From contig JAJDCD010000022.1 in the NCBI GenBank assembly GCA_029261035.1, forward strand, positions 23,242 through 87,241: a stretch of 64,000 nucleotides of DNA, in the 5' to 3' direction. Position numbers and translations under genes: made by a program. Source of the stretch: Candidatus Omnitrophota bacterium (lineage in GTDB: Bacteria; Omnitrophota; Omnitrophia; Omnitrophales; JACROU01). The notes under the pieces are model-generated. The model saw only the letters and a list, made by a program, of their open reading frames with translations, was not told where the DNA came from and made no database searches. Below, piece after piece: positions 5,970 to 60,900 of the stretch (position 1 is its first letter; each line of letters starts with the position of its first letter).

Positions 5970-6068
5970 CTCTACTTATTTATCTTCTGTTTTTCATCTC
6001 ATTTCATTGAAAATCCTACAAATACGACAATTTCTGCCTAAAACTTAAAAATAGTTAATTTACCTGTG

Positions 6069-6084
6069 TGTGACCCATGTCACA
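6069..6084 (+). promoter_or_regulatory. Crp-type operator and promoter of the nar operon
   Basis: The perfect palindrome TGTGA-CCCATG-TCACA lies 21 nt upstream of the -10 TATACT (6106-6111), so its centre is near -41.5, the class II activator position. The first gene of the nar operon starts at 6166. Confidence 0.8.
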
Positions 6085-6165
6085 AACAGTTTTAAGTAAT
6101 GGAGCTATACTATTTTACGAGTTTGCACTATTCACCCAATTCTTTAGACTCTACGAAGGTGTGTA

Positions 6166-6957
6166 ATGAAGATAAATTTGTTGAGATTCTCAATTTCTCT
6201 ATTTGTTTTGCTGGTATGTTTTCATTCTGGTAAGGCATTTGCTATCGATGAAGATATGGTGGATATTGACACGTCGGTTCAACTTTATGTACAGAACTGT
6301 TCTGGCTGTCATACCGTTGGAGGAGGAGAGCTGACGGGCCCTGACTTAAAGGATGTTTCTACATGGTCCCAGAATGATCTATTTCCGGCAGTAAAGAGAA
6401 TGGAGAAAGAGGTAGGGCCTTTAACGGATGAAGAAATTCAGAGTTTGGTAGATTTCTTAAAGACTCCAGATGCGGGAGAACGTGTAAAAGCAGAAGAAGC
6501 AAAGGTTTCTATGAAGTTCCTGTCCCAGATGTCACCCGCAGATTCGGAGTTAGGAAAAGAATTATTTTTTGGCGAGAAAAGTTTTGAGAATAAAGGCTTA
6601 GCTTGCATTTCCTGCCACGGGATATCGGATTACCAAGGAGGCCATTTAGGTCCCGACTTAACAGGGATTTACAAGAAAATGGGTGAAACGGCTTTAGTTT
6701 CTGCTAATGAAAAAGCTAGCTTTAAGATTATGCGAGCGGCTTATAAAGATCACGCTATTACAAAACAAGAAGCGCTCCACTTAACCGAGTTTATGAAAAA
6801 AGTTTCTGAAGATCCAAAAACGGCATCGGAGTTTAATCCTGTTGTATGGATAGGCTCAGGGTTAGCCTTATTATTTTTTATTGTTCTTTTATTTATACGA
6901 CCTAAAAGAAAAAAAAGCACAAGACATAATTTAATTAAAAAAACGAAAAAAGGGTAA
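6166..6957 (+). CDS. membrane-anchored diheme cytochrome c (NarC-like)
   Basis: 263 residues: signal peptide (1-26, cleaved near GKAFA), heme site CSGCH at 45-49, second heme site CISCH at 147-151, one transmembrane helix (about 226-245) and a very basic cytoplasmic tail. Each heme domain has a downstream LTGPDL/LGPDLTG segment typical of class I cytochromes c. It is the first gene of the nar operon, as is the diheme NarC of Thermus-type nar operons, and should move electrons between the bc-type module and NarGHI on the outer face of the inner membrane. It ends 3 nt before narG. The exact electron partners are inferred. Confidence 0.85.
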   Translation: MKINLLRFSISLFVLLVCFHSGKAFAIDEDMVDIDTSVQLYVQNCSGCHTVGGGELTGPDLKDVSTWSQNDLFPAVKRMEKEVGPLTDEEIQSLVDFLKTPDAGERVKAEEAKVSMKFLSQMSPADSELGKELFFGEKSFENKGLACISCHGISDYQGGHLGPDLTGIYKKMGETALVSANEKASFKIMRAAYKDHAITKQEALHLTEFMKKVSEDPKTASEFNPVVWIGSGLALLFFIVLLFIRPKRKKSTRHNLIKKTKKG

Positions 6958-6960
6958 ATC

Positions 6961-34365: not shown

Positions 34366-34541
34366 TCTGAAATTCCTTATATTTTAAGTTCTTTAAGCAT
34401 AAAGAGTTACATTTCTTCAATATACTAGGGTTTGATTTTTAGCTCTTTTTATGGTTTACTTGTCGTCAATATTTGTCTGTAATCCCTTATTTTCGGACGT
34501 TTTACGGCAAATATTAATTACTTTCTTGCTTGGAGACTCAA

Positions 34542-37500
34542 TTGAATTCAGACTCAAAATTAATAAAAGTTTTAGCATTTTTCATCTCTTTTTATTTTAC
34601 ACTTTTTTCAACCTTTTCTTATGCTAAGGCAATCCCTGTAGCTCAAGTGGGTTCTTATGGGGATAATCCTTTAAGCATTTCTATTCCTTCTGAATTAGGA
34701 ATACTCCGTAATAGTACCCCTATTTTTCAAAAGAAGGGTATTATTTTTCATATTCAAGACGCGCATGGGCAATTAGAAGCTCAAGAGAATATTGAGAAAT
34801 TACTCCACTACTTAAATTCTGAGCACAATGTAAATCTAATTTTTATGGAAGGAGCTCTTCAGGGAAGTGTTTCAAAAGACTTACTTCGTTTTTACTCCGA
34901 GCCAAAAGCGAATGAAAATGTTGTGGAGCAATTACTTGAAAAAGGGTTGATTGGTGGTGCTGAAAAATTCTTAGTTAATTCGGATAAAGAAACAAAAGGT
35001 TTTGGGGTAGAAAATAGTTCTCTTTATAGAGAAAATTTAGAATTATTTAGAGATGTATATAAATATCGAAAGATCACAGATATTTTCTTAAGCCAGTTTA
35101 GAAGTCGAATTGATTTGCTCTCCACTCATTATTTCAATTCGGACTTAAGAAAGTTTGTTATGGAGTGGTTGAAATTTTCTCGGAAAGAAAATCTTCAATA
35201 CCGTTTTATTCAATTTTTAAATAAATCATCAAAAAAATATCTAAACCTTGATTTAAATAACCCTCGAACCCAACTCCGTTACCCCCAATTAACGCGCTTC
35301 TTCACACTAAAGAAACTTGAAGAAGAGTTGAAGGGTGAGGATGCTCAAAAAGATTTAAAGGTTGAGAAAGTAAAATTTAATAATTGGCTTACTAACAAAG
35401 ATATTTCTTCTGAGACTCAAAATTTATTTAAACTGTTATTAGATTTTCATTCCTTATCTTCTGTTTCGAATATTAAATTTGATATTCGAAAAACTCTCGA
35501 AATCTTTTATACTCAAGCTTCTAAGAAAGGCTTTCAATTTCAAGATTATCCTCAGTTAACACGTGTTATAGGCAGTCTAATGTTATCTCAAGAACTTCAA
35601 GCGACGCAGTTGTTTTTAGAAGTAGAAGGTGTGTCTGAAGCTATTCTGGGAAAGTTAACGCAATCTGAGATAGAGAAAGATTTAGTCGGTTTAATCAAAA
35701 AATACTTATCCTTAAAAAAACTTTTTGCTTTGGAATTAACGCGTGAAGATTGGAGAAAGATAAATTTATATGGAATTCATTTAATTGCACCTGAAGAATT
35801 AGTCTCTTCTATTCATGGAACGGTTGAGTCTAAACGTATTGAAGAGTTGAAAGTAGATTTTGAAATTAAAGAAGCTTTTGAGAAAGCGACGCAATTTTAT
35901 GCAGTAGCTGAAAAGAGAGAGTCTGTGATTGTTGAGAGTGTTCTCATCAATACAAAAGAGAATCAAAATGCTGTTCTGGTTACCGGAGGTTTTCACTCTG
36001 GAGGTTTGAGAGACTTGGTGGAGAAGGGAAGAAAGACTTTTATTGAGATAACGCCTAAAGTCACTCATTTAAATTCGGATCATACCTATTTAAATCAGAT
36101 GTTGCTCTCTGATGTGTCTACAGTTCCGTCCCTTTCTTTGGGGAAGCTATCATTACCTCAAATTGACCGTAATTTTGGGAGTGAGTCAGGACGATATGTG
36201 TTATCACAGCTTATGCCTATTCTTTCTCGTACAGATGGGAGATCAGGAATAGCCTTTGATGTTCATGGTATTAAACCGACGCATCGGTTGGAGCAACCTC
36301 AATTACAGACTGTAAGTGTTGCAGCCTCTTTAGGGAATAACTATCTAGAAAATGCTTTCTTTAAGTCTGCTCGTTTTGTTTCTCGAATACTGCCAACAAC
36401 TTGGAAAGAAGATATTAAGAGTGTAATTTTTAGAAGGTTAGCTAAAAACCTTAAGAAGGCTATAGTGGAGTTTGCGATTCAATATGAAGATTTACATCCA
36501 GGAGCTCAAATTGATAAACCAACGAAAGAGATGCAAGAAGCTTTCTTGAAAATTGCGAGACCCTTAGTGGAGAAGTGGTCTTCTAAACTTAAAAATAAAC
36601 TTCGTTATCGTTTTCTTTTACCTCTTGTTTTGAATTACCCTGAAGGGGATGAGGAGTACCGTAGAAATTCTATTTTTATAGATAAGGATACGGGATTTGG
36701 AATTTTTACTCATGTTTGGAAAAAGGACGGAAAAACTTTAATTCATAATCATGATGGAACTATGGCGCTGTTGATGCCTTTTACCAATGAGATGAAAGAG
36801 GAAGTGTATCAATTGGTAGAAAAACCCAAGTCTCCGGAGTGGGATAAACAAATACATGACTTAGAGATGATTGAAGAAAGAAAATTAGGATTGGGTACCG
36901 TTGCAAGTTTTACAAGAGGTCAACGGTCGATTCATCGAGTGAAGAACTCTTCTCCTTCGAGAGAAGGGCTTGTGATGGAGATTTACGTTTGGATGGAAAG
37001 TAATCCTCCAAAACAAGTGAATGTTCCTATTCCTGTTTGGGGAGAAGAAAAAGCACATTTTATTTTGAGAGAAGAAGCCGGTAAATTAGCAGTTCCGTTA
37101 CACCAGACTTTAAAACCGCACTCGGGACAGTTGATAAGACCGGAAATGGTAGGAGTTTTTGTTGATCATTTGAAGCTGCAAATGGAAGAGTATGCGCAGA
37201 AGGGGAAGGTGTACCCCATATTTATATTTGATGGAAAACAAATTTATGTTTTTGAAGATGTAGAGAAAGCTTTTGAGTGGTATTACGAATTAGATCCCGC
37301 AAACAGACCTGATGTTTATATTAAGCTTACAGAAGAACAAGAGTATGCTTTTCTGGATGCCTCAAATGTGAATTTCCATCAAGAATCATTAGGCTCGAGT
37401 TTGGGGTTATCTGTTACAGAAGAAGTGCAAGAGAAGGCGGAGCTCTTTCGTACTTTGAAAGGTGTTGGAGATGTTGAATTCATTGATGCTTTTATACAGA

Positions 37501-40500
37501 ATGTTTACTATTCTTTACTGGACTCACCTCCAAGTGAAATAGTTGTAGACCCCGAAAATTATCAAGAGGGCCCTTCTTTGTTTGTTGACTATCGTGAGAA
37601 ATGGTTAAAACACTTTGAAGGTTATTTTGATATAGCGACTCTTCTACAAGACGCTACTCCTGAATTTATCGACTACATGAAAGCTATTTTATTAAAGATG
37701 TTTTTTGAAAGATTTCCCGAGGTGGATAATCTGCCTGTTAGAGCTATTGAAGAGTTGGTGTATGAGTTCATTCGTTTGATTACTGGAATGCCAGAAGTAA
37801 TGTCTTTCTTTAAAATGCGCGCACTTAGAGTCGGGGTGCACGAATTGCCTTTGCTTCATTTGAATAGTTCTGCTACGAGTAACGCGAGAGAGATGGGACA
37901 CTATCTGATGGGTTTTGCCGCTCAAGCAAACATAGCGACCTCAGATGATTTTCGAGCTGCTGGAATAGATATGTATGAAACAGAGCAAAGAATGAAAAGA
38001 AATACTACTTTTGATGAAGATCAAAAACAGGATTTAATTGAAGAGCCCTTTGCGAAATATGCCATGAGAATTAGAGAGGTTCAACCTAAGTTTTCGATTG
38101 ATGCTCGGAATCCTCTGTTAAACCGTTTGTTAGAAAGAAATGAGGAGGATGAGATTAAATCAAAACAAATTCTCTACTTCTTAGATAATACCATGGAATC
38201 CATTTTTGATTTAGGTCTGATCCGTTGGATGATACAAATGGGTCATCAGGTTACTTTAGTAGCAAAAGAAAAAGAAGCTGATAATGATATGACTGTTGAT
38301 GATGTTAATTTGCTATTAAGTTTAGAGCAAGTAAAAGACTTTTTCAAAGACATTGATATTCAGGAAAAGATAAAAGTAATTTCAAGCGGTTCTGCAACTA
38401 GAGGAACAAACCTCAGAAGAGCAACTCCAGTCTTGGTAGAAGCATGGCAACAAGCAGAGATTATTATTTCAAAGGGAGAGGGGAATAGAGGAACTCTTCA
38501 AGGTGTTAATAAGGATGTGTATCACTTCGTGATGGCAAAACAAGGACATGAAACTCCTGGGATCCATCAAGGAACCATAGCTGTTGAGCATGTTTTGGCA
38601 GCAAAGAAAACAGAAGCTTCAAGCTTAGGGGTTGAGAATGTTGATGACTCGATGCAGGAATTTATCCTCCGCTATTTAGAGCCTAAATTACCATCGCCTC
38701 AAATTGTTGCAAAGCCTAAACAGTACCGAATGACATCAAATGTGTTTTCATCTACCCATCCAGAGATTAAGGAAAAAAGAATCGCAAATACTTTTCTCTA
38801 TTTAGAGATGATGATGCAAGGGCTGTCGGCAGAAACACAAGAGAAGAACAGATTGCTACTAAAACGTTTCATGGATAGACCGGAATTGGAAGGGGTTAAT
38901 TTAAGGCTCTTTTCTTTAATTGTTTATGATTTTATAAAAATTTTGACTGAAAGAAAAGAAGGTTTAAGTAATGCAAAAAAAGAAGCTTATTCTATTGTCC
39001 TAGACATTTTGCATATATCGAAACATGAGTTTGAAGGTTTGGAAAGCGCACGCGAACAAGGGGCTTTAGCTATTGATTTTGCTACGCGCGGAAATCAAAC
39101 AACTTACCGTACTTTTTTAGAAATATCTCAAGGATCTATTCCAACGATAGGTTATCGTGCTCACATGATGGCGCTTACGAATGAACCTTTGGCTTGGTCT
39201 GTGGATGATCGTTCTGAATTGTTAGACCTCTTGTTAGAATCAGAAAAAGGAAAGGTGAAGTCGAAGCATGTACTTTATCTTCTGGATAATGTCATAGAAG
39301 ATGTTTTTGATTTAATATTAGTTCAGTGGCTCCTTGAACAAGGCCACACAGTTACTCTTGTTGTTAAAGAATTAGAAGCTGGAAATGATACGACCTTTGA
39401 GGATATAAACTATTTAATTCAACAAGAAAAGGTTTTGGAGTATTTAAAACAGAGTGGAAACGTTTTTAATATTAATATCGTTTCTAGTAAGTCTGCAACG
39501 CATGCAACAGATTTGCGTTTTGTGACAGAAGAAGATAATCTGGGGCTATATCATTCTTGGCTTGCTGCAGATGTGATTATAGCTAAGGGAGAAGGTAATC
39601 GTGGAGCTTTGCAGGGAATCCATAAAGATTTTTTTAGTTTAGTAAATTCAAAAGCAGGTTACGAAACTCCTGGAATCAAAAAAGGGACACGTGCTGTTGA
39701 AAGAAATTTAGGATACCAATCTAGAACAGCTCTCCGTTCTACTGTATTTCAACACATAAACGGAATTGTTTTAGCTCCCGTGATGAACTCTTTAGCGAAG
39801 AGGGGTGTTTTTAATTTGTTCAGACCTTCAGAAGGTGGATATGAAGAGGTTTCGGAAATGGGTGAAACTCGAGCTGAAACCATGGATGAAGATGAAGCGT
39901 TAGACGATGCAGGTCTTTCTAGAGTTTTAACTTTAAAACAAATCGCGGAAAGTCGATTTGCAAATCGTGCTATTGTTGAGGGTAACCCTGAGGATAATAT
40001 GGGTAATCTTTATGGAGCTCTTCGGATGTTGGCTCTTCAAGGTTGGCTCACGATGGAAGGGGTCGATGAGGAGACAAAGTTTGCGTTAACAGAGCAAGGT
40101 TGGAAAGCTGTTGGCTTAGCTGAAAAAGGGACGTATATACCTTCAGTAGAAGCTGTGTCTAACTTAAATCAATTATATCGTTTAATCCGAGGTCCTCCCG
40201 CCGGCTTAGGAATGTTGTTTAGACAAAAATCTGAAAATGATGAGCAATTAAAAAGCTATAAAAAATTAATCCAATTGAGTAAAAAGAATTGGGGTATAAG
40301 AGGTGCGAAGTACTCTATTGAAGAACGTGTTTACCAGCAAGTGGTTAAGCAGATGGACGGGATGTTGTTGGGGCCAACCTTTGTTGCTTTGGCTATGCCT
40401 TTATATGAAGAACGAGGCGAAAAAATAGAAAAAACGGGGCCCTCCTTTTTTGAGCACTTTGATCCAGAAACACACACGCTTGATTTAACAACGTTAAAGG

Positions 40501-43500
40501 GATCCTTTCACCCTGAGTTTTTAAATGAAGCATTAGGACTTTTGGAAAATAAAGGTTTTATCGTTTTTGAAGGCACCGATAAAAAAGTTGTTCGTTTGAC
40601 TGCTACGGGTCGAGTGATGGGAACGCGTCCTAGAAAAGGGAAGTCGGAGCTAGCTACAGCTTATGGTGTTACTAATTCTTATCTCGTCGGTTATCAATAT
40701 GTGGATGAATGGTTGTTTGGTAATGGAGCTATTCTGGATTCAATTGAAGGGGATCGATTAGATCGTGTGATGGATGTTTGGGGTTCTGGAGGAAGTCATA
40801 AGGCTTACTTGGGGGGTGTATTGTCTTATATGGAAGAAGTGTTTAATAAACCCCTAGAAGATCAGCCTGAAGGCTATGCGGATATGGGCAGTGGTAGTGG
40901 AGAGATGGCTGAAGAAATTACAGATTTTATTCTTAATAAAACAGCGCGCGGTAACGTTCTGGAAGAGAAGGCTTTAACTGTGGTTACCTCGGACTATGAT
41001 CGAGCATCTCAAAGACGTTCTCGAGCTACGATGGAAACAGCTTTTGGAAATAGAAAGGACATTCATTTAGAAACACTTTATGGTGATATTACAAAACCGG
41101 GTGAATATGATGCTGCAATTCGAAATTCATCCGATCTCAATGGAGCAACTGCTCGTAATTTGGTGCATTCTCAATTTTTTATACCTCACGAACGTTTTCT
41201 TCAATTAAAGTATGATGAAAAAAATAATGCGTTAGATATTATTCGTGAGAGTTTAAGTGCCGTTGATCGAGTTCAGCTAAAAAAAGCCTTAGAGCTTTTA
41301 GGAGAAACAAGAGAATTGCCAACAGGTGAGAACGAGTTATTTGAGTTTGTTATTCGTCAATTCACAACCTCTTATTCGGATCGAGGTCGCTTGATTCCAG
41401 CTGTAGTTCAGGCTGCGGATTTAATGCAGTTTATGAGAAAGTGGGCGCCTTATACCCAACATGGATTAATTGTTTTAGATTTACATACACCTAGAGTTAA
41501 CAGTCTGCTATTTCAGGATATCCCAAAGGATTTAAATCAACCCATGACCGTGGAATTAACTCCAGCGGTTGCTTATTGGGGAACCCATTGGATTCCGAGA
41601 AAGAACGCGCCATCCCAATTGATTATGCCTTATGAAGAATATAACCTTGTGATGGTTTTAGCCGGGATGACGCCAATTAGTCCAAAGCAATACCCTCCTA
41701 AAAAGACATTGCCAACCAACGTAAGTTTGACGCTTTACCGTGAGTCTAGTGCCGCAAACTCATTGGGTAAGGAGAATGATTTTCCTTTAACTCAGAAAGA
41801 GGCTCTTCAGATGATTTCGAAGAGAACTTTTAAAACGAAAGACTTAGATCGTATTCAAGGTGTTCCAGTTTCTAAAAGTAATATTTCATACAAACACCCC
41901 TATGTAACAGAAACGCAGATGAAATTATTAGCGAAAGTTTCTGAACAGAAGTATACGGATGAAGAACTTGATGTTGTTATTCAAGGAGGTTTTTTTAAGC
42001 CATTAACTCCAAAAGAAAGAGAAGAAGCTAATAAATTAGAAGATGCTCGAGGCTTTTATCTTTTTGATGAGCGTGATGTTTTGTTTCGTAGAGTAGATGT
42101 GGAACGATTATTAAATGGAATGATTAGAGAAAAATATGCGCGTCGTCTTATGCGCACAGATCGTATTCGGATTGTTAGGTTATTAAATATTAAAGGAAAC
42201 AAAGAGCATTGGGAAGTTCAGACTTATGGAAAGATTCAATTAATCCCTGTTGCAGTAGTCAGAGAATGGTTAGAAGAAAAAGAACGTTTAGTTCATAGAG
42301 CAGTGGCTAAAAAAGTTTTAGAAGGGTTGGGTATTCGAATTGGTTCTTTTTACAGTTTTCTTAAGAAGCCTAAGAGTCATCTGAAAGGAGTTCAATTACC
42401 TGAACATAATAAAGAAAGAGGTGATTTGCTAAGTGTTAATTTGTATGGTTCTCCTGAATATCTAGATATACGAACTCTATGGTGGATTGTTGAACATCAC
42501 ACTAAAAAACAAGTGGTGAGTCAGCCTGGAAGTTCGGGGAGTGGAAGAGATGTGTCCAATGCTTCAAGTTTAGGCAATCCAGATAAAAGCGAAAAGTCAG
42601 AACGAATACAAAAGGCCATAAAAAAGACAGGGTATTCGGTGAAAAAATTTACTTCAAAAATGAGAGGGGAAATGTCGGCCTCTACCTTAGCTAGTTGGGC
42701 TAGTGGATATTACGAACCGACCCTAGAGCAGGTTCAGTGGGTGGAATTAGAATCGGAGCGTTTAATGAAAAAGGTGAGAAAGCAAATTGTTAAACGTGTT
42801 CTTTATTTAAAAAATCTTTTAGATTTATCTCCCAATAAATTTCTTCAATTATTAAAAACAGAATTAAATTGGAAACGTTTTCCAACAGTACTTCAAATAA
42901 CAGAAGGTGACTTTGACTTAACCCCTTCTCAGCTAGAAGAAATTGAGTTGGTAGCAAAAAAAACTATTGCCGAGGAGTTTCGTTATTTGAGAAGAGAGAT
43001 CTTGAACGAGGGGCAAATTACTTTTTCAGATTATCTGGAAACTCATCAAGTGACATTGTCTCGTTACGAGAGAGGTGTTTTGCCGATTACAGTGGATTTA
43101 GCTAAAGCTTTAAGAAAAGCGCGAAGGATTGTTTATGAAAAAGCTCCTGAGAAACTAAAACGAACTCGACTTCAGTTAGATGTATCTCAAGTAAAAATGG
43201 GGGAATTGTTAGGTTTTAAGGTCCAACATGTAAGAAAAAAGACAGAAAACTTAGAGTCAGGTCATACGTTGATGCCTCCTGGGTTATTGCAAAAGGCTCA
43301 AAAGCTTTTGGGTACTTTAAAGAAACAGACAGGTCTTAAACTTCGTTTTTATAGAGAGCGAGCAGGATTGACCCAAGAAGAGCTGGTTGAAGCGATTGAC
43401 GTTGAAGGCGTTGATAAAGCGCGAAACATTAGTTTGTTTGAAAAGGGAACGTTGGTGACGCCTTATGAAGTGATGGTGCGAACTAAAGAAATAGCTCGAG

Positions 43501-44504
43501 AAACAGTTACAGATGAAAATCTAAAAAGAGGATTGGAATTAAAATTTTATCGACTTCAAACAGGAATGACTCAACCTGAGTTTGTTGAAGCGCTTAATTT
43601 GGATAGTATCAATGAAGGCCGTCAAGAACTTGGAAGAATGGAAAGAGGGCTGTATCACGTACCTCAAGAAGTTCTCGATGCTGCTCGATTTATAGCTCAG
43701 AGACGCTCTGATTTTTCATTGTTCGAAACTTCAGCTGCTAGTTTAGGTTTAGAGAAATCTGTTATTGAAGTTGCGCGTTTCCCTGGTCAACGATTGTTTC
43801 GTGTTTCGGAATTGAGTGGGGAGCGTATTGGAGAGTTCTTTGAACAATTGGGTTTAGCGGATTCTACTTCTGTTGATAAGGATGTTCAATTATTTAATAA
43901 GGATTTAACTATCTTACTTTCAAATTTAGGTTTTGCTGATAGGCGTCAGCAAGAGAGAAGGTCTCTGCCTTTGATTTTAAACCAAGAAGTTTTGAATATG
44001 TATCAGAAGGAATCTGAAAAAGTTGTTCATAAAATATTAGGGGCAGTAAAACGAGGGGATGAGCTTTTAATTTTAAAGACAGAAAGAAAGGCATCTCGTT
44101 TGATTGATCAGTTGAAAACTAAGGCTCATGGAAAAGTGAAAATTCAAGTTTTGCCCGAAGCGCTTTTCAACTCTCAAAGAGTTGGGGTCTTAACTGAAAA
44201 ATATCAAACAAAGCCAATTCTCGTAGAGTCTCTGTCTTCTGGAAAAAGAGATCAAGTTTCTGTGGACGAAATTCGGTTGGACTTAGATGCATTTACCCAA
44301 AGAGGAATTGATCCCATTCAGGTATTAGCCTTAATTAGGAGAATGGCGGATGATCCGAATAAAAGGGCTCAGTTGTTCTTTGAGGCTGGATTTGACTTTA
44401 ACCAGGACCGTCAATATTGGGTTGTGGGACAACGCTTTGTACAGATTATGACCCAAATCTACTCCGAATACCTCCAATCGCGTCAGATAGCCCAGGCGGC
44501 CTAA
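34542..44504 (+). CDS. giant exported mosaic protein with (A/S)SLG-punctuated domains
   Basis: 3320 residues. I use the TTG at 34542, 6 nt after GGAG; the TTG at 34530 overlaps that site. A signal peptide (1-29, cut near FSYA) opens it. In order: a TraB/ChaN-like part (HIQDAHGQ near 68, VTGGFHSGG near 483); a cupin/cysteine-dioxygenase-like part (IHNHDG near 733); two tandem DUF89/ARMT1-like domains (LDNTMESIFD near 1212 with KGEGN near 1310; LDNVIEDVFD near 1578 with KGEGN near 1682); a winged-helix-like stretch; a SAM methyltransferase (ADMGSGSGE near 2112); a long helical part; several XRE-like helix-turn-helix repeats (about 2680-3060); and a 250-residue end. The motif (A/S)(A/S/N)SLG recurs at 594, 952, 1359, 2404, 2674 and 3065, at domain borders. 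Function unknown; a polyprotein is possible. Confidence 0.85.
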   Translation: MNSDSKLIKVLAFFISFYFTLFSTFSYAKAIPVAQVGSYGDNPLSISIPSELGILRNSTPIFQKKGIIFHIQDAHGQLEAQENIEKLLHYLNSEHNVNLIFMEGALQGSVSKDLLRFYSEPKANENVVEQLLEKGLIGGAEKFLVNSDKETKGFGVENSSLYRENLELFRDVYKYRKITDIFLSQFRSRIDLLSTHYFNSDLRKFVMEWLKFSRKENLQYRFIQFLNKSSKKYLNLDLNNPRTQLRYPQLTRFFTLKKLEEELKGEDAQKDLKVEKVKFNNWLTNKDISSETQNLFKLLLDFHSLSSVSNIKFDIRKTLEIFYTQASKKGFQFQDYPQLTRVIGSLMLSQELQATQLFLEVEGVSEAILGKLTQSEIEKDLVGLIKKYLSLKKLFALELTREDWRKINLYGIHLIAPEELVSSIHGTVESKRIEELKVDFEIKEAFEKATQFYAVAEKRESVIVESVLINTKENQNAVLVTGGFHSGGLRDLVEKGRKTFIEITPKVTHLNSDHTYLNQMLLSDVSTVPSLSLGKLSLPQIDRNFGSESGRYVLSQLMPILSRTDGRSGIAFDVHGIKPTHRLEQPQLQTVSVAASLGNNYLENAFFKSARFVSRILPTTWKEDIKSVIFRRLAKNLKKAIVEFAIQYEDLHPGAQIDKPTKEMQEAFLKIARPLVEKWSSKLKNKLRYRFLLPLVLNYPEGDEEYRRNSIFIDKDTGFGIFTHVWKKDGKTLIHNHDGTMALLMPFTNEMKEEVYQLVEKPKSPEWDKQIHDLEMIEERKLGLGTVASFTRGQRSIHRVKNSSPSREGLVMEIYVWMESNPPKQVNVPIPVWGEEKAHFILREEAGKLAVPLHQTLKPHSGQLIRPEMVGVFVDHLKLQMEEYAQKGKVYPIFIFDGKQIYVFEDVEKAFEWYYELDPANRPDVYIKLTEEQEYAFLDASNVNFHQESLGSSLGLSVTEEVQEKAELFRTLKGVGDVEFIDAFIQNVYYSLLDSPPSEIVVDPENYQEGPSLFVDYREKWLKHFEGYFDIATLLQDATPEFIDYMKAILLKMFFERFPEVDNLPVRAIEELVYEFIRLITGMPEVMSFFKMRALRVGVHELPLLHLNSSATSNAREMGHYLMGFAAQANIATSDDFRAAGIDMYETEQRMKRNTTFDEDQKQDLIEEPFAKYAMRIREVQPKFSIDARNPLLNRLLERNEEDEIKSKQILYFLDNTMESIFDLGLIRWMIQMGHQVTLVAKEKEADNDMTVDDVNLLLSLEQVKDFFKDIDIQEKIKVISSGSATRGTNLRRATPVLVEAWQQAEIIISKGEGNRGTLQGVNKDVYHFVMAKQGHETPGIHQGTIAVEHVLAAKKTEASSLGVENVDDSMQEFILRYLEPKLPSPQIVAKPKQYRMTSNVFSSTHPEIKEKRIANTFLYLEMMMQGLSAETQEKNRLLLKRFMDRPELEGVNLRLFSLIVYDFIKILTERKEGLSNAKKEAYSIVLDILHISKHEFEGLESAREQGALAIDFATRGNQTTYRTFLEISQGSIPTIGYRAHMMALTNEPLAWSVDDRSELLDLLLESEKGKVKSKHVLYLLDNVIEDVFDLILVQWLLEQGHTVTLVVKELEAGNDTTFEDINYLIQQEKVLEYLKQSGNVFNINIVSSKSATHATDLRFVTEEDNLGLYHSWLAADVIIAKGEGNRGALQGIHKDFFSLVNSKAGYETPGIKKGTRAVERNLGYQSRTALRSTVFQHINGIVLAPVMNSLAKRGVFNLFRPSEGGYEEVSEMGETRAETMDEDEALDDAGLSRVLTLKQIAESRFANRAIVEGNPEDNMGNLYGALRMLALQGWLTMEGVDEETKFALTEQGWKAVGLAEKGTYIPSVEAVSNLNQLYRLIRGPPAGLGMLFRQKSENDEQLKSYKKLIQLSKKNWGIRGAKYSIEERVYQQVVKQMDGMLLGPTFVALAMPLYEERGEKIEKTGPSFFEHFDPETHTLDLTTLKGSFHPEFLNEALGLLENKGFIVFEGTDKKVVRLTATGRVMGTRPRKGKSELATAYGVTNSYLVGYQYVDEWLFGNGAILDSIEGDRLDRVMDVWGSGGSHKAYLGGVLSYMEEVFNKPLEDQPEGYADMGSGSGEMAEEITDFILNKTARGNVLEEKALTVVTSDYDRASQRRSRATMETAFGNRKDIHLETLYGDITKPGEYDAAIRNSSDLNGATARNLVHSQFFIPHERFLQLKYDEKNNALDIIRESLSAVDRVQLKKALELLGETRELPTGENELFEFVIRQFTTSYSDRGRLIPAVVQAADLMQFMRKWAPYTQHGLIVLDLHTPRVNSLLFQDIPKDLNQPMTVELTPAVAYWGTHWIPRKNAPSQLIMPYEEYNLVMVLAGMTPISPKQYPPKKTLPTNVSLTLYRESSAANSLGKENDFPLTQKEALQMISKRTFKTKDLDRIQGVPVSKSNISYKHPYVTETQMKLLAKVSEQKYTDEELDVVIQGGFFKPLTPKEREEANKLEDARGFYLFDERDVLFRRVDVERLLNGMIREKYARRLMRTDRIRIVRLLNIKGNKEHWEVQTYGKIQLIPVAVVREWLEEKERLVHRAVAKKVLEGLGIRIGSFYSFLKKPKSHLKGVQLPEHNKERGDLLSVNLYGSPEYLDIRTLWWIVEHHTKKQVVSQPGSSGSGRDVSNASSLGNPDKSEKSERIQKAIKKTGYSVKKFTSKMRGEMSASTLASWASGYYEPTLEQVQWVELESERLMKKVRKQIVKRVLYLKNLLDLSPNKFLQLLKTELNWKRFPTVLQITEGDFDLTPSQLEEIELVAKKTIAEEFRYLRREILNEGQITFSDYLETHQVTLSRYERGVLPITVDLAKALRKARRIVYEKAPEKLKRTRLQLDVSQVKMGELLGFKVQHVRKKTENLESGHTLMPPGLLQKAQKLLGTLKKQTGLKLRFYRERAGLTQEELVEAIDVEGVDKARNISLFEKGTLVTPYEVMVRTKEIARETVTDENLKRGLELKFYRLQTGMTQPEFVEALNLDSINEGRQELGRMERGLYHVPQEVLDAARFIAQRRSDFSLFETSAASLGLEKSVIEVARFPGQRLFRVSELSGERIGEFFEQLGLADSTSVDKDVQLFNKDLTILLSNLGFADRRQQERRSLPLILNQEVLNMYQKESEKVVHKILGAVKRGDELLILKTERKASRLIDQLKTKAHGKVKIQVLPEALFNSQRVGVLTEKYQTKPILVESLSSGKRDQVSVDEIRLDLDAFTQRGIDPIQVLALIRRMADDPNKRAQLFFEAGFDFNQDRQYWVVGQRFVQIMTQIYSEYLQSRQIAQAA

Positions 44505-51574: not shown

Positions 51575-51985
51575 ATGGATAAAATTAAACAACCTAAGCT
51601 ATTGACTCTTGAAGAAGCAAATGCAATTCTTCCTGAAATAACTGTGCTTCTCAAACAAATTTCTGACAAAAAAGACCAGATAGAAAAGAAGCAAGTCGAA
51701 ATCGATTCTCTAGAGCTTATCTTGGATGAAGATACCCCTAAACTACAGCAAGACTTAATCGACCGTTCTAGTGAATTTAATGAGCTAGTTTCTCAGGTTA
51801 AGAAAACGCTTCAGCGCATTGAAGACAAGGGTGGTTATCTAAAAGATCTAGATTATGGTCTTGTTGATTTTTTTGGAATGCATGAAAATAAAGTTGTTTA
51901 CTATTGCTGGAAGCTAGGAGAATCTAAAATTACTCACTGGCATGAAGTGGGTGAAGGGTTTGCTTCTAGGAAGCCTATTCATTAG
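51575..51985 (+). CDS. DUF2203 family protein
   Basis: 136 residues. LLTLEEANAILPEITVLLKQI at the start, a coiled coil in the middle (about 25-80) and GYLKDLDYGLVDFFG...VYYCWKLGESKITHWHEVGEGFASRKPI at the end are the conserved DUF2203 features. Function unknown in the family. I use ATG 51575 (AGAGG 5 nt before); the ATG at 51548 lies in the promoter. Its stop overlaps that of the giant minus-strand gene by 4 nt with no room for a terminator. Confidence 0.85.
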   Translation: MDKIKQPKLLTLEEANAILPEITVLLKQISDKKDQIEKKQVEIDSLELILDEDTPKLQQDLIDRSSEFNELVSQVKKTLQRIEDKGGYLKDLDYGLVDFFGMHENKVVYYCWKLGESKITHWHEVGEGFASRKPIH

Positions 51986-54900
51986 TTCTGATTGTTCATT
52001 TCTTCTATGGTTGCTCTATAACCAATCCCGTGAGTTGTTAAGATTTTAAGCGTTTCATCTGATTCTGCTATTGTTCTCTTCTTTTTCTTTTGTCGATCAG
52101 AATAACCTGGAATTTCAATTTCCGCATCATTTTCTAATCTCTTTTGTTTAATTAAGAGTATGAGGTTTTCTATAAAATCTTTTCTTGATTGTCTATTTTG
52201 AAAATAAATTTGAGCTAATAGAGCTTGGTTTAAATTAAGTATGATTAGTGGCCCTTGAGGTGATGTTGATCCAATTGGACCTCCAATTGAGAATAACCAA
52301 TTAATATTGTTTCCACTATTAATGATGCCAGGGAGAGTGGCGTTAATTGGAGTGGCGTTGATGTTAACACTATCTTGAACATCTAAGAAGCCTAGCGTAG
52401 TGCCGCCTTGAGCGTCGATGTTCCACTGTGTTCCAGGTGTGCTGGATCTTAAGAAGAGTATATTGCCGGCAGCACCTTGTAATGTAAGATTACCAGCTAC
52501 CGTTAATGTAGAGCTTGCTTGGAAGGTGAGTGTTGGGTCAACGACATTTACTTTGCTGAAATTATTCACTGTAAAAGAACCTGTAATTGATTGATCTAGA
52601 CCGTCTAAGACAAAGGTTCCTCCATTGCCATTAAATGTAGCGGCAGGCGCAACGGTAATATTGTTTTTAACTCTAAAGGTAGTGCTAGGAGCGGTTAATG
52701 TTCCACCCGTTAGATTTAAGTTACCATTTACATCTATAATTCCTGTGTTACCATTCACATTTCCATTGGAGATATTTAAGTTTCCTTCGATTTGCTGGGT
52801 GTTTGTTCCTGTGTTAAAGGTTCCGCCATTAACAGTGACATTGCCTTGGGTTGTGGTTTGTCTTCCGTTGGAGTTTAAGGTACCGCTGGTGATTTGGACG
52901 TCATTAGCGACGGTAATATCGTTTGTTAAAACAAAAGTGGATTTAGCAATATTTTGATCATTGATGGTAAGGTTGAAGAAATTATTGATCCCGTTAATAT
53001 TTAAAATACCTCCAACTCCATCTCCGATATAGCCTACTGTTCCAATCGTATTGTTAAAGGTTCCAATGGTTGGAGTTTCATTTCCTGCAAGTCTGAGAAG
53101 TCCGTTGTTATCGACGGTACCGGCTGTAAAATTATTTTGATTTGCATTTAAAATATCATCGACTCCGATGGTAAGAGTATCTACGGTAACGGAATCTCCT
53201 AAAAGAATTGTTTTTGCCGTACCATCAACGGTTACATCACCTAAGTCTTGGTTGTTGGCGGATAGAGTAGAGGTGCCATTGCCATCAAAAACCCATCCGC
53301 CATTTCCTTTCGTTACTGTTCCATTGACGGTAATGGTAACGTCACCAGATGCGTTCACCGTAGGGTCATTGGTGAGATCAAAATTTCCGTCTGTAATTGT
53401 GACGTTACCATTAATATCAAGATTATTGGTTAAAACGACATTGTCTGTAACAGGAGTTGATTTATTAATTGTTAAACCAGCGATTGTTTTTCCTGCAAAG
53501 TCAACATTTTGATTGTTGTTTCCGTTGAGTGTGAATGAAGCAGTAGAAGAAACATTTGAGCTTGTTCCCATCGTAACATTACCTCCAACAGATATGGTGT
53601 TGGTAGTAGTGATGCCAGCATTAGTGCTATCAGCTACTGTGAGATTTCCTCCCACGGTGATAGGGTTGGCACTTGTGTCGAGTTGGCCTAGGTTTAGAAC
53701 GGCGTTTCCAACCATGTTAAGAGCTGAGGAGAAGACATTTTTACTGAGTGCATTTGTTAAATTTAGATTTAAATTATTAATTGTTTCACCAGACCAATCG
53801 ACTGTTTGGCTACTGCTACCGTTAAGGTTGATCGTTCCGTTGTTATGAGTTAATGTTGTTATTCCAGATAAATCAATATTGCCACTAACATTACTTGTTC
53901 CAGAGGTTGCTGTGTAATTTCCACCACTAACAGTTAAACCACCTAAGGTGATATCTGCGGTACCTCCAACAAAGTTTCCTCCTGTTTGTGTATAGTTAGC
54001 AGCTGTAATGGTATTTGCCCCATTCTGATTAAGGAAACCTTGGGTGAGTGTTATGTTTTGTTGTACATCCAAATTAGAAAGTAAAATAAGAGAGCCCGCA
54101 ATTTTGCTAATAGTTAGATTAGGAATTGTAGAGTTTGCTGAAGTAGCTGTGAAAGTTTGATTTCCACCACCTGAAAAAGTAAGAGAAGCATTAAAAGAGG
54201 TTTCGTTGTCTAAAAGAGCAAAAGAGCTTGTGTTTCCAGACAGATTAAAGGTTAAATTAATGTCATTTACTGTTACAGCACCGTTTCCTGCCGTAACAGG
54301 GAAGCTTAAGTCTCCGCCAACAGTAACTGTTGGTGTTCCATTACGAGTAATGGCTAGCGTGGTTCCTGCAGCAGAATTTTGAATGGTGATATTTCCTGCT
54401 GTTGAGAAGTTATTACCATCAATAAAGGTGCTTCCTGTGCCTGTGCCGGCCGTTCGTTCAAGAGTTAATGTATTTAGGACGGCATTATTAAATCTAAGTG
54501 TCATTGGAGCAGCAGTATTGTTTCTGTGGATTAAACTTCCATTATTGTGAGTAAAAGTCACTGTGCCTGTAAAATCGACATTACCTAATACAGTTAAGTT
54601 ACCAGAAGTAGACGTGAAAGCTCCTGCATCTAGATCTAAACTGCCAACTGTAATATCTCCAGAGCCTCCTATCCAGTTACCTGTTGTTTGAGTAAAGGCT
54701 TGTGTCACAGTAACGGTGTTTCCACCATTTTGATCAACGGTTCCCTGTGTTAATGTGAGTCCTAAACTAATGTTTAAGTCGGAGAGTAAGGTTAATATTC
54801 CTGAAGTTTTGTTGACTGTAAAGGAACCAAGGGTCGAGTTCTCAGGAGCGTCATTAAAACTTTGAACCCCTGTTCCTGTAAATTGAACGCTGGCATTAAA

Positions 54901-57900
54901 TGTGGCTTCAGTATCTAAGATATTTAGAGAACTTGTTGCTCCTGAAAGAATGTAAGTAATATTTACATCATTAACCGTTACAATTCCGTTACCTACGGTT
55001 ACAGGGATATTAATATTTCCACCCACAGTAACTACAGGGAAGCCATTGCGAGTAATGAGTAATGTAGTACCTGCAACAGAGTTTTGAATGGTGATATCCC
55101 CAAGAGTAGAGAAGCTGTCATTGTCAAAAAAGATACTTCCAGTTCCGGTGCCTGCAGTTCTGTCTAATGTTAATGTGTTAAATACAGCATTGTTTAAGAA
55201 CATACTACTAGTTGTAGAAGAGTTGTTTCGAAGGGTAACATTTCCTCCGTTGTGGTTAAAAGTACCTGCTCCTCTTAAATCTACATTACCCATAACCGTT
55301 AAAACCCCTGAAGTGGAGGTCAAAGTGCCTGCATTAAGGTCAATGCCTAAAGTAATGGATATGGTTCCGGATCCCCCAAGAAAAGCACCACCATCCATGA
55401 CGAGTTGACCGGTAAGAGTTAAATTGTTTCCATTAACGTCATAAGTTGGTGTGCTAATACCTAAGGTTCCTGTTAATGCAATTGTTCCTGTTTGAGTGGT
55501 GTTAGCTGAGAATTCAATGTTGTCATTTGTGGTTATGATGTCTCCAGCAATATTTACAGATCCTGAACCATTTTGTGTGAAGCTTCCATCTAAATTTAAA
55601 TCTCCAGCTGCAGTGATGGTGAGGAGTCCTGTGTTCGTCAGCGTTAGTGTTCCACCACTTGTCGTTGTTATTGTATTGTTAATATTCATTGTTGTGCCTG
55701 AAACGATCGTAGTTGTTCCAACGGATTGAAGGGCAGCATCTAAAGACAAACTAGTTCCAGCATTCAAACTGACATTTCCTACAGTGTTTACGATGAGCTC
55801 ATTAATATTAATCGAAGTTGTCGAAGTGATATTAATAGTAGCACCTGTAGCGGATACACCGACGGTTACTCCGATGCCTCCAATCGTAAGGGCGCCAGTG
55901 TTGTTAATAAAAACACCACCGGTTCCACCGCTAGCTTCAAGGTTAGAAAGGGTTGTTTCTAATGGGTCTAGGGCAGTAGCAATGCCTGCGCCAGCAATCA
56001 ATACTGCGTTTGCGGCAGTAATGTTGTTAGTAGCACCATTTCCATCAATGATAGCGCTTGCTGCACCTCCAGCATTGAGTGTTACGGTATTTGTTCCTGC
56101 GCTGATAGGTCCTGTTGCTGTAATATTACCATTTGTTGTGATGACTGTGATGCCGCCATTATTGGTGGTAATTCCATTAACGCCATCAACAAAACCAATA
56201 ATAAGTGCGGTTGTATTCGTGAAACTTGCTGAGTTGCCTGCAGTGAAGATAACAGCAGATAAAGTTCCAACATTATTGGCTTCATTTAATGTAGTGCTTC
56301 CACCATTAGAAAATCTTAGGTTAGGCACGGTGATTGTGGAACCAGCTGTTTGTGTTAATGTGCCAACAGTGCCGCCAGCAAATAAGGTGAGTGTGGAAAT
56401 GTTACTAGGAGCAATTGCTGTCGTAACGGTTATTCCTCCTGCGGTAGAGCCGCCAATTCTTAATATATTTGCTGTTATTGTATTTAATTCAGTATTAGTT
56501 AATCCTAGAAGACCAACAGCATCAGCTGCACCTAAATTAATTGCCGTACCATTCGTTCTGTGGGTCAGAGAAACGATTGAACCTGTGTTTGTTGTTGTTC
56601 CAACTAAATTAATATTATCTGCATTATAATTGATATTGTCATTACCGTTACCGACAACGTCTCCAAGAATAGATAGGAGTTGATTGGCTCCTGCTAGGCT
56701 GAGTAAAATTTGCTCCCCAAAAATATCTTGAGCAGCAGGTGTATTGTTAACTGTCAAATTACCTGTGCTAACAGAAATTATGATATCTCCGTTATTGGTA
56801 CTAATACCATTAACCCCATCTACACTACCAATGATTAAAGTGTTGGCTTCTGTGAAGTTAAAAGCAGCTCCATTACCTGTGATAGAACCTGCTAATGTAG
56901 TTATGTTATTTGATAAAGTAAGGCTGACGGTGTTTCCAGCAGAAAGAGCAAGGTTTGTAGTCGTGACATTTCCATTTGTTTGATCAATGATGCCGCTTGT
57001 AATCAAACTGAGAGTAGACACATTTGCAGGATTAATACTTTGTGATAAAGTCATGTTGCCTGCTGTTGTGTTTCCAATTCTTAAAGTCGATGCTGTGATT
57101 GTGTCGAGCTCCGAGTCTGTTAATCCAAGTACTGTTGCAGCATCCGCGCCACCTAGATTGATGTTAACATTGTTGTTAGTAGGTTGGAGGAGAACTACCC
57201 CAAGAGTAGATGTGGTTGCGCCAGTCAACGTCATATTATCAGCAGTATAGGTTGCTCCTCCTGTAGCATTGATTGTTCCTGTCACTGTTAATAATCGATC
57301 TGTTCCTCCAGCGGTTAAGCTGACTGTTGAAGTACCTGCATTTACATCTTGAGTGGATGCTGTATTGCTAATTGTAAGAGGGCCGTCATTCGTGCTTAAG
57401 CTGATGGAGCCGTTGTTTGTACTAACCCCATTAATTCCATCAACGCTGCCGACGGTTAATCCATCGGTGTCGGTGTAGCTAAAACTATTACCATTACCTG
57501 TGACGCTAGCTGCAACAGTATTAACTGCGTTTGTGGTAGAGGAGAGAGTAACGTTGCCCGCAGATCTTATTGCTAGTTGATTGGCGGAAAGATTTCCACC
57601 TGTTTGAGTGATAAGTCCTGCTCCGCCGCCAGCACCATTATCAGAAGTAATTCGTATTAGTCCAGAAGTACTTACAACAGCTGATTGTAGCAATACGTCA
57701 TCTCCAGCAAGAAGTGTTACTGTACCTCCTGCTGTACTGGAAACAGTAATGGCACCTACCGTTAAATTGTCATCACTTCCTCCATTACCCAATGCTGTAA
57801 TCGTAATGTCATTGCCACCAGTGATGTTTTCAATAACAGAAATAGGACTAGACGCTGAAACATCTATGACTCCTGTGGCTGAGATGCCGACAGTAGCTCC

Positions 57901-60900
57901 AATGCCACCAATGGTAAGGCCTCCTGTATTAGCAATGAATACGCCTCCGGTACCTCCAGCAGCTTCTAAATTGTTCACAGCTGTTTCAATAAAATCTCCT
58001 GCTGTTCCAACACCAGCACCTGAGGTGAGCACAGCACTAGTTCCAGTAATGTTATTGGTTGCTCCGTTAATGTCAGTGATTGTTCCTGAGGTTGCAGTAA
58101 CACTGATAGCACCACTGCCAGTTGAGTTTAATTGGCTTAGAACGACATTGGTAGCTGCAGAGTAGTTAATAGATCCTGTGTTAGATGTAGTTGTAACTCC
58201 GTTTGCCATGGTAATTGTTAGTCCTGATGTTAATGTGACAGAACCACTACCAGCAGCACTAATAGTTCCAGCGGCATTTTGGTTGATGTCTCCGCCAGTC
58301 GTATTTAGCGTAATAGTTCCATTACCACCTGATGCAGAAACAGCAGCATTTAAAATAAGATCATCTGTTGCTGCACCACCTGTAGTGGATAAAACAATGC
58401 TTCCTCCGCCTGTGTTTGTGATTGTTTCATTAATAGCAAAAGCATTTGGAGTAGAGATAGTAATGTTACCTCCTGTAGCAGATACTCCAACCATAGCACT
58501 AATGCCACCAATATTTAAAGTGCCTGTATCTAATACATCAATACCTCCAGTTCCACCATCTGCTTCTAAATTAGTTACATCAATTTCTAAGGTTCCACCA
58601 ACGCCAGTAACACCGATGCCACCATTACCGGTTAGTATGGCAGAGGTGGCAACAATATCTGCTGTACCATCACTCCCAAGTTCAAAAATAGAGCCACCGC
58701 CTGAAGTCGTTGTGCTCAAAGTTACTTGATCGGGTGCGCTTACAAGTCCAACTACAATATTAAGCCCGTTACCTGTTGTAGATAAATTAACATCAGATCC
58801 AGCGCCACTAGCAACTACATTGGTTGCAGATATGAAAGAAGAGGTGACCAAAGTAATGTTTCCATTGTTAGTGGTGGCATTCGTAATATTGCTGTCGTTT
58901 GCATTGTTAATATCAATGTCTCCAGTTCCAGTAACAGATAAACTTAAACTGGTAACGTTGGTTTCAATCGTTCCTGTGCTTCCAATTCCTGTTTGTGCTG
59001 TAGCTGTTAAAGTATCTCCGCTGATATCTATGCTGCCGTCACTGCCTATCTCATTAATATTTCCATTGGTTGATGTTAAATTTACATCGCCTGTCGCAAT
59101 AAGAGAATTGATTTGAACTGCTTGTCCTGCACTAATAGTAATGTTTGAATTTAAACCAGTTGTCTGTATAAGAAAAATAGCTCCTTGAGACACAATTCCT
59201 GTTCCATTGGAATTGAAATCCCCATCTATATTAACTTCTCCTACGGCTATTATATTTGCATTGAGATTAACACTGATTCCTGAATTCAAAGTAAGGGATT
59301 CATTAGCATTAATAGTTCCACTGATATTGATAAATCCAGATTCACCAGGAGCACGAAAGGTGTATGAATCATTTAACGTAATTGCAAAAATAGTAATGGA
59401 GCCGTTTCCATCTGTGCGTCCAATAGTTATAGAGTTGAATCCATCTGCGAGTGCTGCAATATCTGCGCTTGAAAGTTGCAATGTTCCACCACCACCATCT
59501 CCAACTCGAATCAGATCATTTGCGTTTTCTGCTTGAAGTATGACGTTTCCTGTGCCAGTCACAGAACCAGAGAAGTCTATATTATTAGAGGTAACAGTTA
59601 GTGTGTTTGCTCCCATGCTAAGTGTTCCGCGAACATCAATGCCACCATCGCCAACAGTAAGGTCGGTTCCTGGTGTGAAAGTGCTTCCGCCAAGAACAAG
59701 AAGCTCTTTTCCAGAAGCCATTGTGAAAACACCTGCAGGAGTGGTGTAAATAGCGTCGATATCTGTATCCCCATTGTTTGCAGTGATTAAATTAGCAACG
59801 CTAATAGGACCGGCGTTGTTATGACGCACAATTAAATGATCTTCGAAGATGTTAATAACGCTCAATTGATCAGCGTCTGAGATGGTGACGGTCACTCCTT
59901 GAGGAGCTCCATTATTATCTAGGTAAACAGTGACAACGTCTGTAGCTGCTATAGGAAGGCTTACAAAAACAAAAAGGCCTTCTAATCCGGCAGATGCAAA
60001 AGTAGTCGATGTTGCAGATGCAGCACCTCCGTTAAAAGCAACAGAAACGTTTGTTCCTGTGAGTGGTGTTGTCTCATCTGATTGAAAAACAGTTCCGGTA
60101 ACAGAACCTGGGAAGCTCCAATTGATATTATTTCCAAGACCTGCACTTGCTGTAGTTACAATTGTGGTTGCATTAATATTGTTACTATCTCGGACAAGAA
60201 GACGGTTAACGGTTCTAGTTCCTTGAGGGTCGATGCTCCATTGAGTTCCATTGATGGAGCTTTGTAGTGTTAGGAACTGTCCAGCTGCCCCAGAAAGGTT
60301 GAGTGCATTGGTGATTGTTGTGGTTGTACCAGCTTGAAAGGTGAGTGTATCAGCAACAGCAACGACTTTGGTTAAATTAAAGAAATCTGTGCTTCCAGAA
60401 AGGGACTGTACGGTTCCATCTAAAATGACGGTTCCACCATTTGGATCAAATGTTGTTTCGTTGAGTCCATTACGATTAAAATTACCAGAGACATTTGTGT
60501 TTCCGCTCGTGAGAATAACATTTCCTCCTGTTTGAATATAATCACCATCGACATCAATAGCATGAGCTGCACTGGAGCCATTGAATGTACCTCCATTAAT
60601 TTCCATGTTACCTAACACGGTTAGAACTTCTGTTTGGTTATAAACTCCGTTGTTTAATATGAAAGTATTGTTTCCTCTAACTAATACAGAGAAGGTGATT
60701 TGGCTGAATGTTCCAGAATTAATTGTCATTGTGTTTTTAACAACCAAAGTCGATGCAAGTTGAAATGTTTCTGTGGCTGTATCACCACCAATAGTTAAAT
60801 TGAAATAATCAAGAGTTTCAGCCCCAAGATCATAATTTTTAACCGTAAATAAAGTTGTTCCGAGAGCACCATCGCCGACATATTCCCAAGTTCCAGAATC

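Follow-up and report, generated by a model that had tools for sequence, protein, structure and literature searches.

A giant exported multidomain protein of an Omnitrophota bacterium carries a short recurrent tag at its domain borders, a candidate site of polyprotein processing

The tagged gene and its modules

The gene for the putative polyprotein occupies 34542..44504 (+ strand) of a 64,000-nucleotide stretch of DNA, hereafter the window, from an Omnitrophota genome of 2.70 Mb in 26 contigs. Its open reading frame extends stop-to-stop from 34518 to 44501 and contains TTG codons at 34530 and 34542, from which cysteine-free proteins of 3324 and 3320 residues, respectively, would be translated. 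GGAG is found 7 bases 5′ of TTG 34542, which appears from the sequence to be the best start; residue numbers in our analysis count from TTG 34530 and equal those of the original prediction plus 4. The predicted features of the gene are as follows.

34542..34631, + strand: signal peptide KLIKVLAFFISFYFTLFSTFSYAKA, a hydrophobic segment
34662..36137, + strand: N-terminal domain of predicted Tiki/EreA/ChaN fold with a large helical insertion (AlphaFold2 model, VIA-align, conserved residues)
36321..36335, + strand: tag 1, AASLG (sequence read-out)
36336..37379, + strand: module 2, weak cupin/cysteine-dioxygenase-like match (PF05995, E 0.027, under the Pfam cut-off)
37392..37406, + strand: tag 2, GSSLG (sequence read-out)
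37407..38609, + strand: module 3, DUF89/ARMT1-like damage-control phosphatase, copy 1 (PF01937, E 1e-42, in two stretches; PDB 2g8l, E 1e-6)
38616..38630, + strand: tag 3, ASSLG (same border as IAASLG of the G001 relative in the alignment)
38631..39734, + strand: module 4a, DUF89/ARMT1-like, copy 2 (Pfam), followed by the decayed border ERNLG
39735..41729, + strand: module 4b, AprA-like methyltransferase, AprA_N plus winged helix (PF23525, E 5e-33; PF23526, E 1e-8; PDB 7ucl, E 8e-17, and 6b39, E 3e-9)
41754..41768, + strand: tag 4, ANSLG (aligned with AASLG of the G001 relative)
41769..42545, + strand: module 5, no family match
42561..42575, + strand: tag 5, ASSLG (sequence read-out)
42576..43709, + strand: module 6, XRE-type helix-turn-helix repeats (PF01381, E 1.5e-7; PF13560, E 6e-7)
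43734..43748, + strand: tag 6, AASLG (sequence read-out)
43872..44501, + strand: C-terminal module with an Ala-Ala end (208-position profile matching at ORF ends)

The original prediction of a giant exported chain with one recurrent tag at the borders of unrelated domain families is supported. All six tags that it reported are present, starting at 36321, 37392, 38616, 41754, 42561, and 43734, and four are spelled as given; the second, given as SSLG, is GSSLG, and the fourth, given as AANSLG, has the core ANSLG. None of these six [AG]xSLG tags lies in a recognised domain. A degenerate SLSLG is found at 36129, and ERNLG near residue 1727 is the decayed border between modules 4a and 4b, which has lost its tag and faces AASLG in the G001 relative; tags are absent from some other borders as well. 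The DUF89-like, methyltransferase, and XRE repeat assignments of the prediction agree with Pfam matches, its TraB/ChaN-like first domain is right at the level of fold, as judged by VIA-align of the AlphaFold2 model, and its cupin-like module remains a weak match. The C-terminal module is common to the ends of 12 other putative polyproteins (13 members after iteration), and a single-sequence AlphaFold2 model of it, with a pLDDT of only 44.6, was uninformative about its fold.

A relative of 1761 residues from genome G001 consists of the Tiki-fold domain, one DUF89 unit, and the AprA unit, with tags at the same borders as the window protein despite 37% identity. The cupin-like module 2 and most of the later modules are absent from it, which indicates that modules come and go between tags, and the tags are retained where the flanking linker changes. 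No [ASN]SLG was found in the other window ORFs of at least 120 residues. These include a second giant ORF at 51982-63930 (− strand), a cysteine-free protein of 3982 residues whose repeats resemble adhesin or filamentous units, which has neither the Tiki-fold domain nor tags.

A family of giant chains in Omnitrophota

The N-terminal domain of the window protein, here called the head domain, is found at about 45 loci of the window genome. In the stretches of the genome that were read, we recovered 38 ORFs with this head, amounting to 125.6 kaa and ~375 kb, or about 14% of the genome, together with six tagged giant ORFs in which no head was recognised; the longest chain has 16,199 residues. In relatives of the same order, giant ORFs start with the same domain and reach 13,402 residues among those read. 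Homologs of the head domain were detected in 55 of the 58 genomes searched, mostly at the starts of giant ORFs, with 55 matches in G002 and 41 in G048; the relatives compared are metagenome-assembled genomes (MAGs). A taxon-labelled scan placed the head family in Omnitrophota, with a few matches labelled Elusimicrobia (L196, L210, L219) or Theseobacter (L207, L217); L193 likewise carries a label outside Omnitrophota.

The chains share a frame consisting of a signal peptide, a Tiki head with His-Glu-His, tagged modules, and a C-terminal unit with Ala as its last residue, and carry from a few to more than 20 modules, which are largely independent enzymes or binding units. A signal-like N-terminal segment was found in 68 of the 70 family N-termini tested. 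In many relatives the signal peptides resemble FTxTT(I/V)AWSAP, with a Pro immediately following what may be an AxA cleavage site; a Pro in that position normally blocks signal peptidase I.

All 39 complete chains of the window genome end in Ala, 31 of them in Ala-Ala. In the first set of other genomes, 20 of 22 complete chains end in Ala (G013C32, an exception, is interrupted by N), as do 21 of 30 chains of the taxon-labelled set, many in Ser-Ala, and in 144 control ORFs Ala is outside the six commonest last residues. The last tag lies 97-403 residues from the chain end in 38 of the 39 window-genome chains (median 264), which means that the chains usually finish in a module of modest size.

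The chains of the window genome are almost devoid of cysteine, with 33 in 131,977 residues (0.02%) compared with 568 in 47,294 (1.2%) for ordinary ORFs, while the other residues shift by at most about 1.5-fold. Ordinary ORFs with a signal-like start contain 0.75% Cys, and less after by-eye removal of obvious cytosolic entries. The near-absence of Cys is consistent with export; G007 and G048 are exceptions to the depletion. VKOR, considered as a reason for the loss of Cys, was absent everywhere searched.

Enzymes within the chains

Many of the modules resemble whole, soluble enzymes. An 8448-residue chain of G025 (L094 815-15814) contains both PGK and GAPDH, well conserved, and its only two Cys belong to the active-site sequence SNASCTTNCL of GAPDH, which suggests that some modules, at least, remain active as enzymes outside the cytoplasm. 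The idea that modules are the sole copies of essential genes was rejected because stand-alone genes usually exist for cytidylate kinase, starch synthase, and PGK; the copies within the chains are diverged. The only PGK match in G008 (C43 136000-136539) lies within a 24,209-residue ORF, and that in G004 (C8 42855-44234) within a 14,650-residue ORF, both MAGs being incomplete.

The tag is enriched far above background

In 138.6 kaa of putative polyproteins from the window genome (44 ORFs), [AG].SLG occurs 218 times, against 10 occurrences of the reversed motif and 14 and 9 of two permutations in the same sequence. Local shuffling of the chains in 30-residue windows left 8.1 occurrences on average and at most 18. 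Ordinary ORFs (62.7 kaa) contain the motif 8 times and its reverse 11 times, which is background with no excess. Because the tag pattern came from the original prediction, an unsupervised k-mer count was also run, and ASSLG, AASLG, and AQSLG were three of the four most over-represented 5-mers. The tag logo of the window genome is [VSAI]-E-[AG]-x-S-L-G. The original prediction proposed testing whether tags recur in related proteomes and sit at domain borders more often than chance, and they clearly do, although we note that several of the tests drew on the same sequences.

The DNA encoding the 218 tags comprises 205 distinct 15-mers and uses both Ser codon families, and it is therefore the protein sequence that is kept; a translated mobile DNA repeat of the RPE type was rejected on the same count of distinct 15-mers. 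The Ser of the SLG tags in the window-genome chains is encoded by AGT/AGC in 77% of cases versus 33% overall, and this over-use of AGY codons raises the possibility that the copying of modules has spread many tags from a single ancestor.

Tags lie between domains, in disordered linkers

Across six chains, none of 125 tags falls within a Pfam domain, where 10.3 would be expected. Since Pfam covers just 2-14% of these chains, a Pfam-free test was added, in which homology blocks were defined by all-against-all BLASTP with the N-domain excluded. Only 26 tags lie strictly within such blocks, compared with 83 ± 7 at random placement, and many of the 26 belong to tandem repeats with a tag between units. 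A tag is found within 40 residues of 40% of homology-block ends, compared with 16%. The opposite outcome, tags common inside domains or randomly placed in homologs, was looked for and not seen.

The ±10 residues around the tags are the most hydrophilic and most disorder-prone stretch, and in places a linker has a tag on both sides. Single enzymes can fill one tag-to-tag interval: in G007, cytidylate kinase (1139-1389) lies between tags at 1108 and 1399, and malic enzyme (8976-9361) between tags at 8933 and 9402.

Other lineages carry candidate equivalents of the tag

Unsupervised counts were also made in other families. In family f6, G.SLG occurs 60 times in 18.5 kaa (0.7 expected). Families f3, f5, and f8 yielded RSEVR, RSELR, RSEMR, RSEAR, and RAEVR, and f7 yielded RSELR and eight R[SA]ExR matches, so that four related families (f3, f5, f7, and f8) carry R[SA]ExR. 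Over 16 chains R[SA]E.R occurs 245 times versus 46 for the reversed motif, some of the 46 being symmetric (RSEAR, for example). In family f2, a weaker AGFG, with 9 occurrences in 18.5 kaa where 0.39 would be expected, may represent a third spelling; in giant ORFs of G003, AGFG stands in linker-like contexts. Families f9, f10, and f14 possess giant ORFs of the same kind with neither of the main tags (SLG and RSExR) enriched, and the architecture therefore does not need the tag.

The tag logos all begin with a small or basic residue and, after a variable position, continue with S or E, an aliphatic residue, and a final G or R, and we infer that the tags of different lineages are equivalent. The best individual example is a HAD-like module with 38% identity between G014 (SLG lineage) and G021 (RSE lineage), where KWQQAASLGSE aligns with KWQRSEPRADE and AASLG and RSEPR share one alignment column. 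Together with the conservation of tag positions between the window protein and its G001 relative (37% identity), this swap at the same column favours a functional site over a scar.

The head domain is predicted to have the Tiki/EreA/ChaN fold

An AlphaFold2 model of the head domain built with 50 homologs has a pLDDT of 92.8. VIA-align matched it to EreC (Z 10.0, 153 residues, 3.5 Å), ChaN (9.2), BcR135 (8.8), and HopBA1 (8.6), so that four of its top seven rows are proteins of a single superfamily, with middling Z values. Foldseek with the model returned no E below 0.001, a PDB profile search with the N-domain gave no real match, and Pfam matches on head domains were marginal (PF04187 in 2 of 30, best E 0.005). 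On the VIA-align matches, the model has the core parallel β-sheet fold of the Tiki/EreA/ChaN superfamily.

Invariant head residues in alignments A1 and A2, numbered with residue 1 at window position 34731, are H12, Q18, E40, Y99, R396, and GGFH (H422). E40, R396, and Q18 are kept in all aligned copies; the invariance of H422/GGFH (G419-G420-H422) in A2 is partly circular in that the scan used GGFH, and A1 was not pattern-selected. The spacing of 28 between His12 and Glu40 is that of the catalytic His-Glu pairs of BcR135 (85/113) and VvRRSP (3902/3930) (PMC6254334). The first motif, E-x-H in the superfamily, is mostly D-x-H in the heads, with N, E, or T in some. As the superfamily holds esterases, haem binders, and endopeptidases, the modelled head domain is likely a hydrolase and possibly a protease.

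Neither S41 nor trypsin-like proteases track the tag

The original prediction suggested looking for a co-occurring protease, and none that tracks the tag was found among the S41 and trypsin-like candidates, neither of which is universal. S41 was considered because of the Ala-Ala chain end, and CtpA/Prc would fit the chemistry of such an end; as the processor, however, it was rejected, with PF03572 in 7 of 15 genomes, missing in 8, tagged and well-sequenced ones among them, and absent from G006, G007, G009, and G013, all more than 90% complete. A trypsin-like secreted protease was also rejected, being missing from the strongly tagged G007 and G030 and others, and its residue 189 is not consistently acidic. 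Its serine motif is GDSGS in RSExR genomes and GSSGG in f1, within one family (alignment A3). At L248, a stand-alone head domain of 497 residues (5716-7209), which lacks the Ala end, is the tail-to-tail neighbour of a trypsin-like gene (7230-8045), which encodes the single trypsin-like secreted protease of that genome.

The only universal protease candidate would thus be the Tiki domain in cis. Its active-site neighbourhood shows no residue difference between SLG and RSExR lineages, unlike what would be expected if the head domain reads the tag.

Interpretation of the tag

We judge it an even call that the window protein is an exported polyprotein, one of about 45, that is cut at its tags by an envelope protease with release of its modules. 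The signal peptide would send the chain through Sec, the tags in disordered linkers most likely would mark where the envelope protease cuts, probably after the last tag residue (G or R), and the modules would be freed outside the cytoplasm, where the envelope, a partner, or prey might be their target. Although we infer cleavage at the tag, the cut position, the identity of the protease, and the action of free modules, a cut site is the best fit because the tags lie at borders and in disordered linkers, are kept while the linker changes, are swapped at the same column, and sometimes flank both sides of one linker. Reading the tag as a domain-shuffling joint does not exclude cleavage, the two being compatible.

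A real rival to the cut site, unlikely in our estimate and still to be taken seriously, is that the tag is a binding motif through which an uncut chain, working as a single giant multi-enzyme or as a fibre at the surface, docks to a scaffold, chaperone, envelope receptor, or secretion component. Short degenerate linker motifs spelled differently by lineage also look like docking peptides, the lack of a protease tracking the tag favours this explanation, and giant proteins of Omnitrophota have been proposed as surface structures (PMC10066038). Docking, however, does not require a motif that is strictly interdomain and at times on both sides of a linker, and the many modules resembling complete soluble enzymes also stand against it.

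Within the cleavage reading, a special case is that the N-terminal Tiki-fold domain is itself the processing protease, acting in cis, which we consider doubtful. Its universal presence at giant-ORF starts, its predicted fold with the His-Glu-His of a superfamily that includes endopeptidases, and its fully conserved E40, R396, and Q18 would fit this role, but the same domain heads untagged families, the surroundings of its active site are alike in the SLG and RSExR lineages, its first acidic residue varies (D/N/E/T), and esterases and haem binders belong to the superfamily too. A fuller and rather improbable version holds that ~15% of the genome would encode nearly Cys-free exported chains of captured cellular enzymes, cut outside the cytoplasm by their own Tiki head at a lineage-specific five-residue site whose spelling was switched between families (SLG, RSExR, perhaps AGFG), and released as a cocktail onto a partner or prey.

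That the tags are recombination scars or seeds, spread by module copying and without later function, is quite improbable. Module gain and loss between tags and the AGY bias of the tag Ser codons, suggestive of shared descent, are what such copying would leave, but the diversity of the tag DNA and its use of both Ser codon families, the different tags of two lineages at the same border, and the persistence of tags where the flanking linker is not kept argue against it. Chance, low-complexity composition, or assembly artefact has almost no probability in spite of S, L, G, and A being common residues and the genomes being MAGs, given that reversed and permuted motifs stay at background and the same architecture recurs in independent genomes.

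The common plan of signal peptide, Tiki head, tagged modules, and Ala-Ala end would apply to a large class of Omnitrophota giant ORFs. If the preferred cleavage reading is true, this would be, within the literature searched (preprints aside), the first large-scale polyprotein strategy of such kind in bacteria, and natural variation of the cut site could be used to find the protease. Even an uncut chain would represent a new organising rule for building and exporting many enzymes at once.

Comparison with known systems

Polyproteins are familiar mainly from viruses, in which one ORF encodes many unrelated proteins with a short repeated motif at their borders. The chains described here likewise combine unrelated units in one ORF, a recurrent border motif, and a possible cis protease, but they are bacterial and exported, number tens per genome, and contain diverged copies of cellular enzymes, with a putative processing step. 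A literature search for bacterial polyproteins, preprints aside, found only a synthetic intein vector.

MARTX toxins are giant exported chains of several effectors with autoprocessing at Leu in unstructured inter-effector segments (PMC2900308), and one of their effectors, RRSP, belongs to the Tiki superfamily as an endopeptidase (PMC6254334). The Omnitrophota chains resemble them in having several modules with motifs in disorder-prone linkers, at which cleavage is proposed. In contrast to MARTX, Pfam detects neither RTX repeats nor a cysteine protease domain in the window protein, and the Omnitrophota chains have dozens of paralogs per genome, a signal peptide for Sec rather than type I secretion, and a fixed lineage-specific tag. 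The head resembles the Tiki/EreA/ChaN/TraB superfamily in fold and catalytic His-Glu spacing and differs in its large helical insertion and in opening the giant chains of tagged families.

Giant ORFs of more than 20 kb with few annotated domains and a puzzling role are common in Omnitrophota such as Velamenicoccus archaeovorus and relatives, organisms reported to be host-dependent and possibly predatory or parasitic (PMC10066038). Those giants come from the same phylum as ours but are described as adhesin-like or poorly annotated, and a term search of that study found no polyprotein or protease.

The tags also recall rickettsial palindromic elements in that a short sequence recurs in many proteins of one genome. 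Those elements are DNA repeats, present as short inserts in many unrelated proteins, whereas the tag DNA differs from tag to tag. Linkers of G007 (L112-L113) contain repeated stretches that resemble translated intergenic repeats, e.g., FIVHSSQFIV and RVGAPVSEFASERVGPITVQPA; viewed at the protein level, these repeats suggest that linkers tolerate insertions except at the tag.
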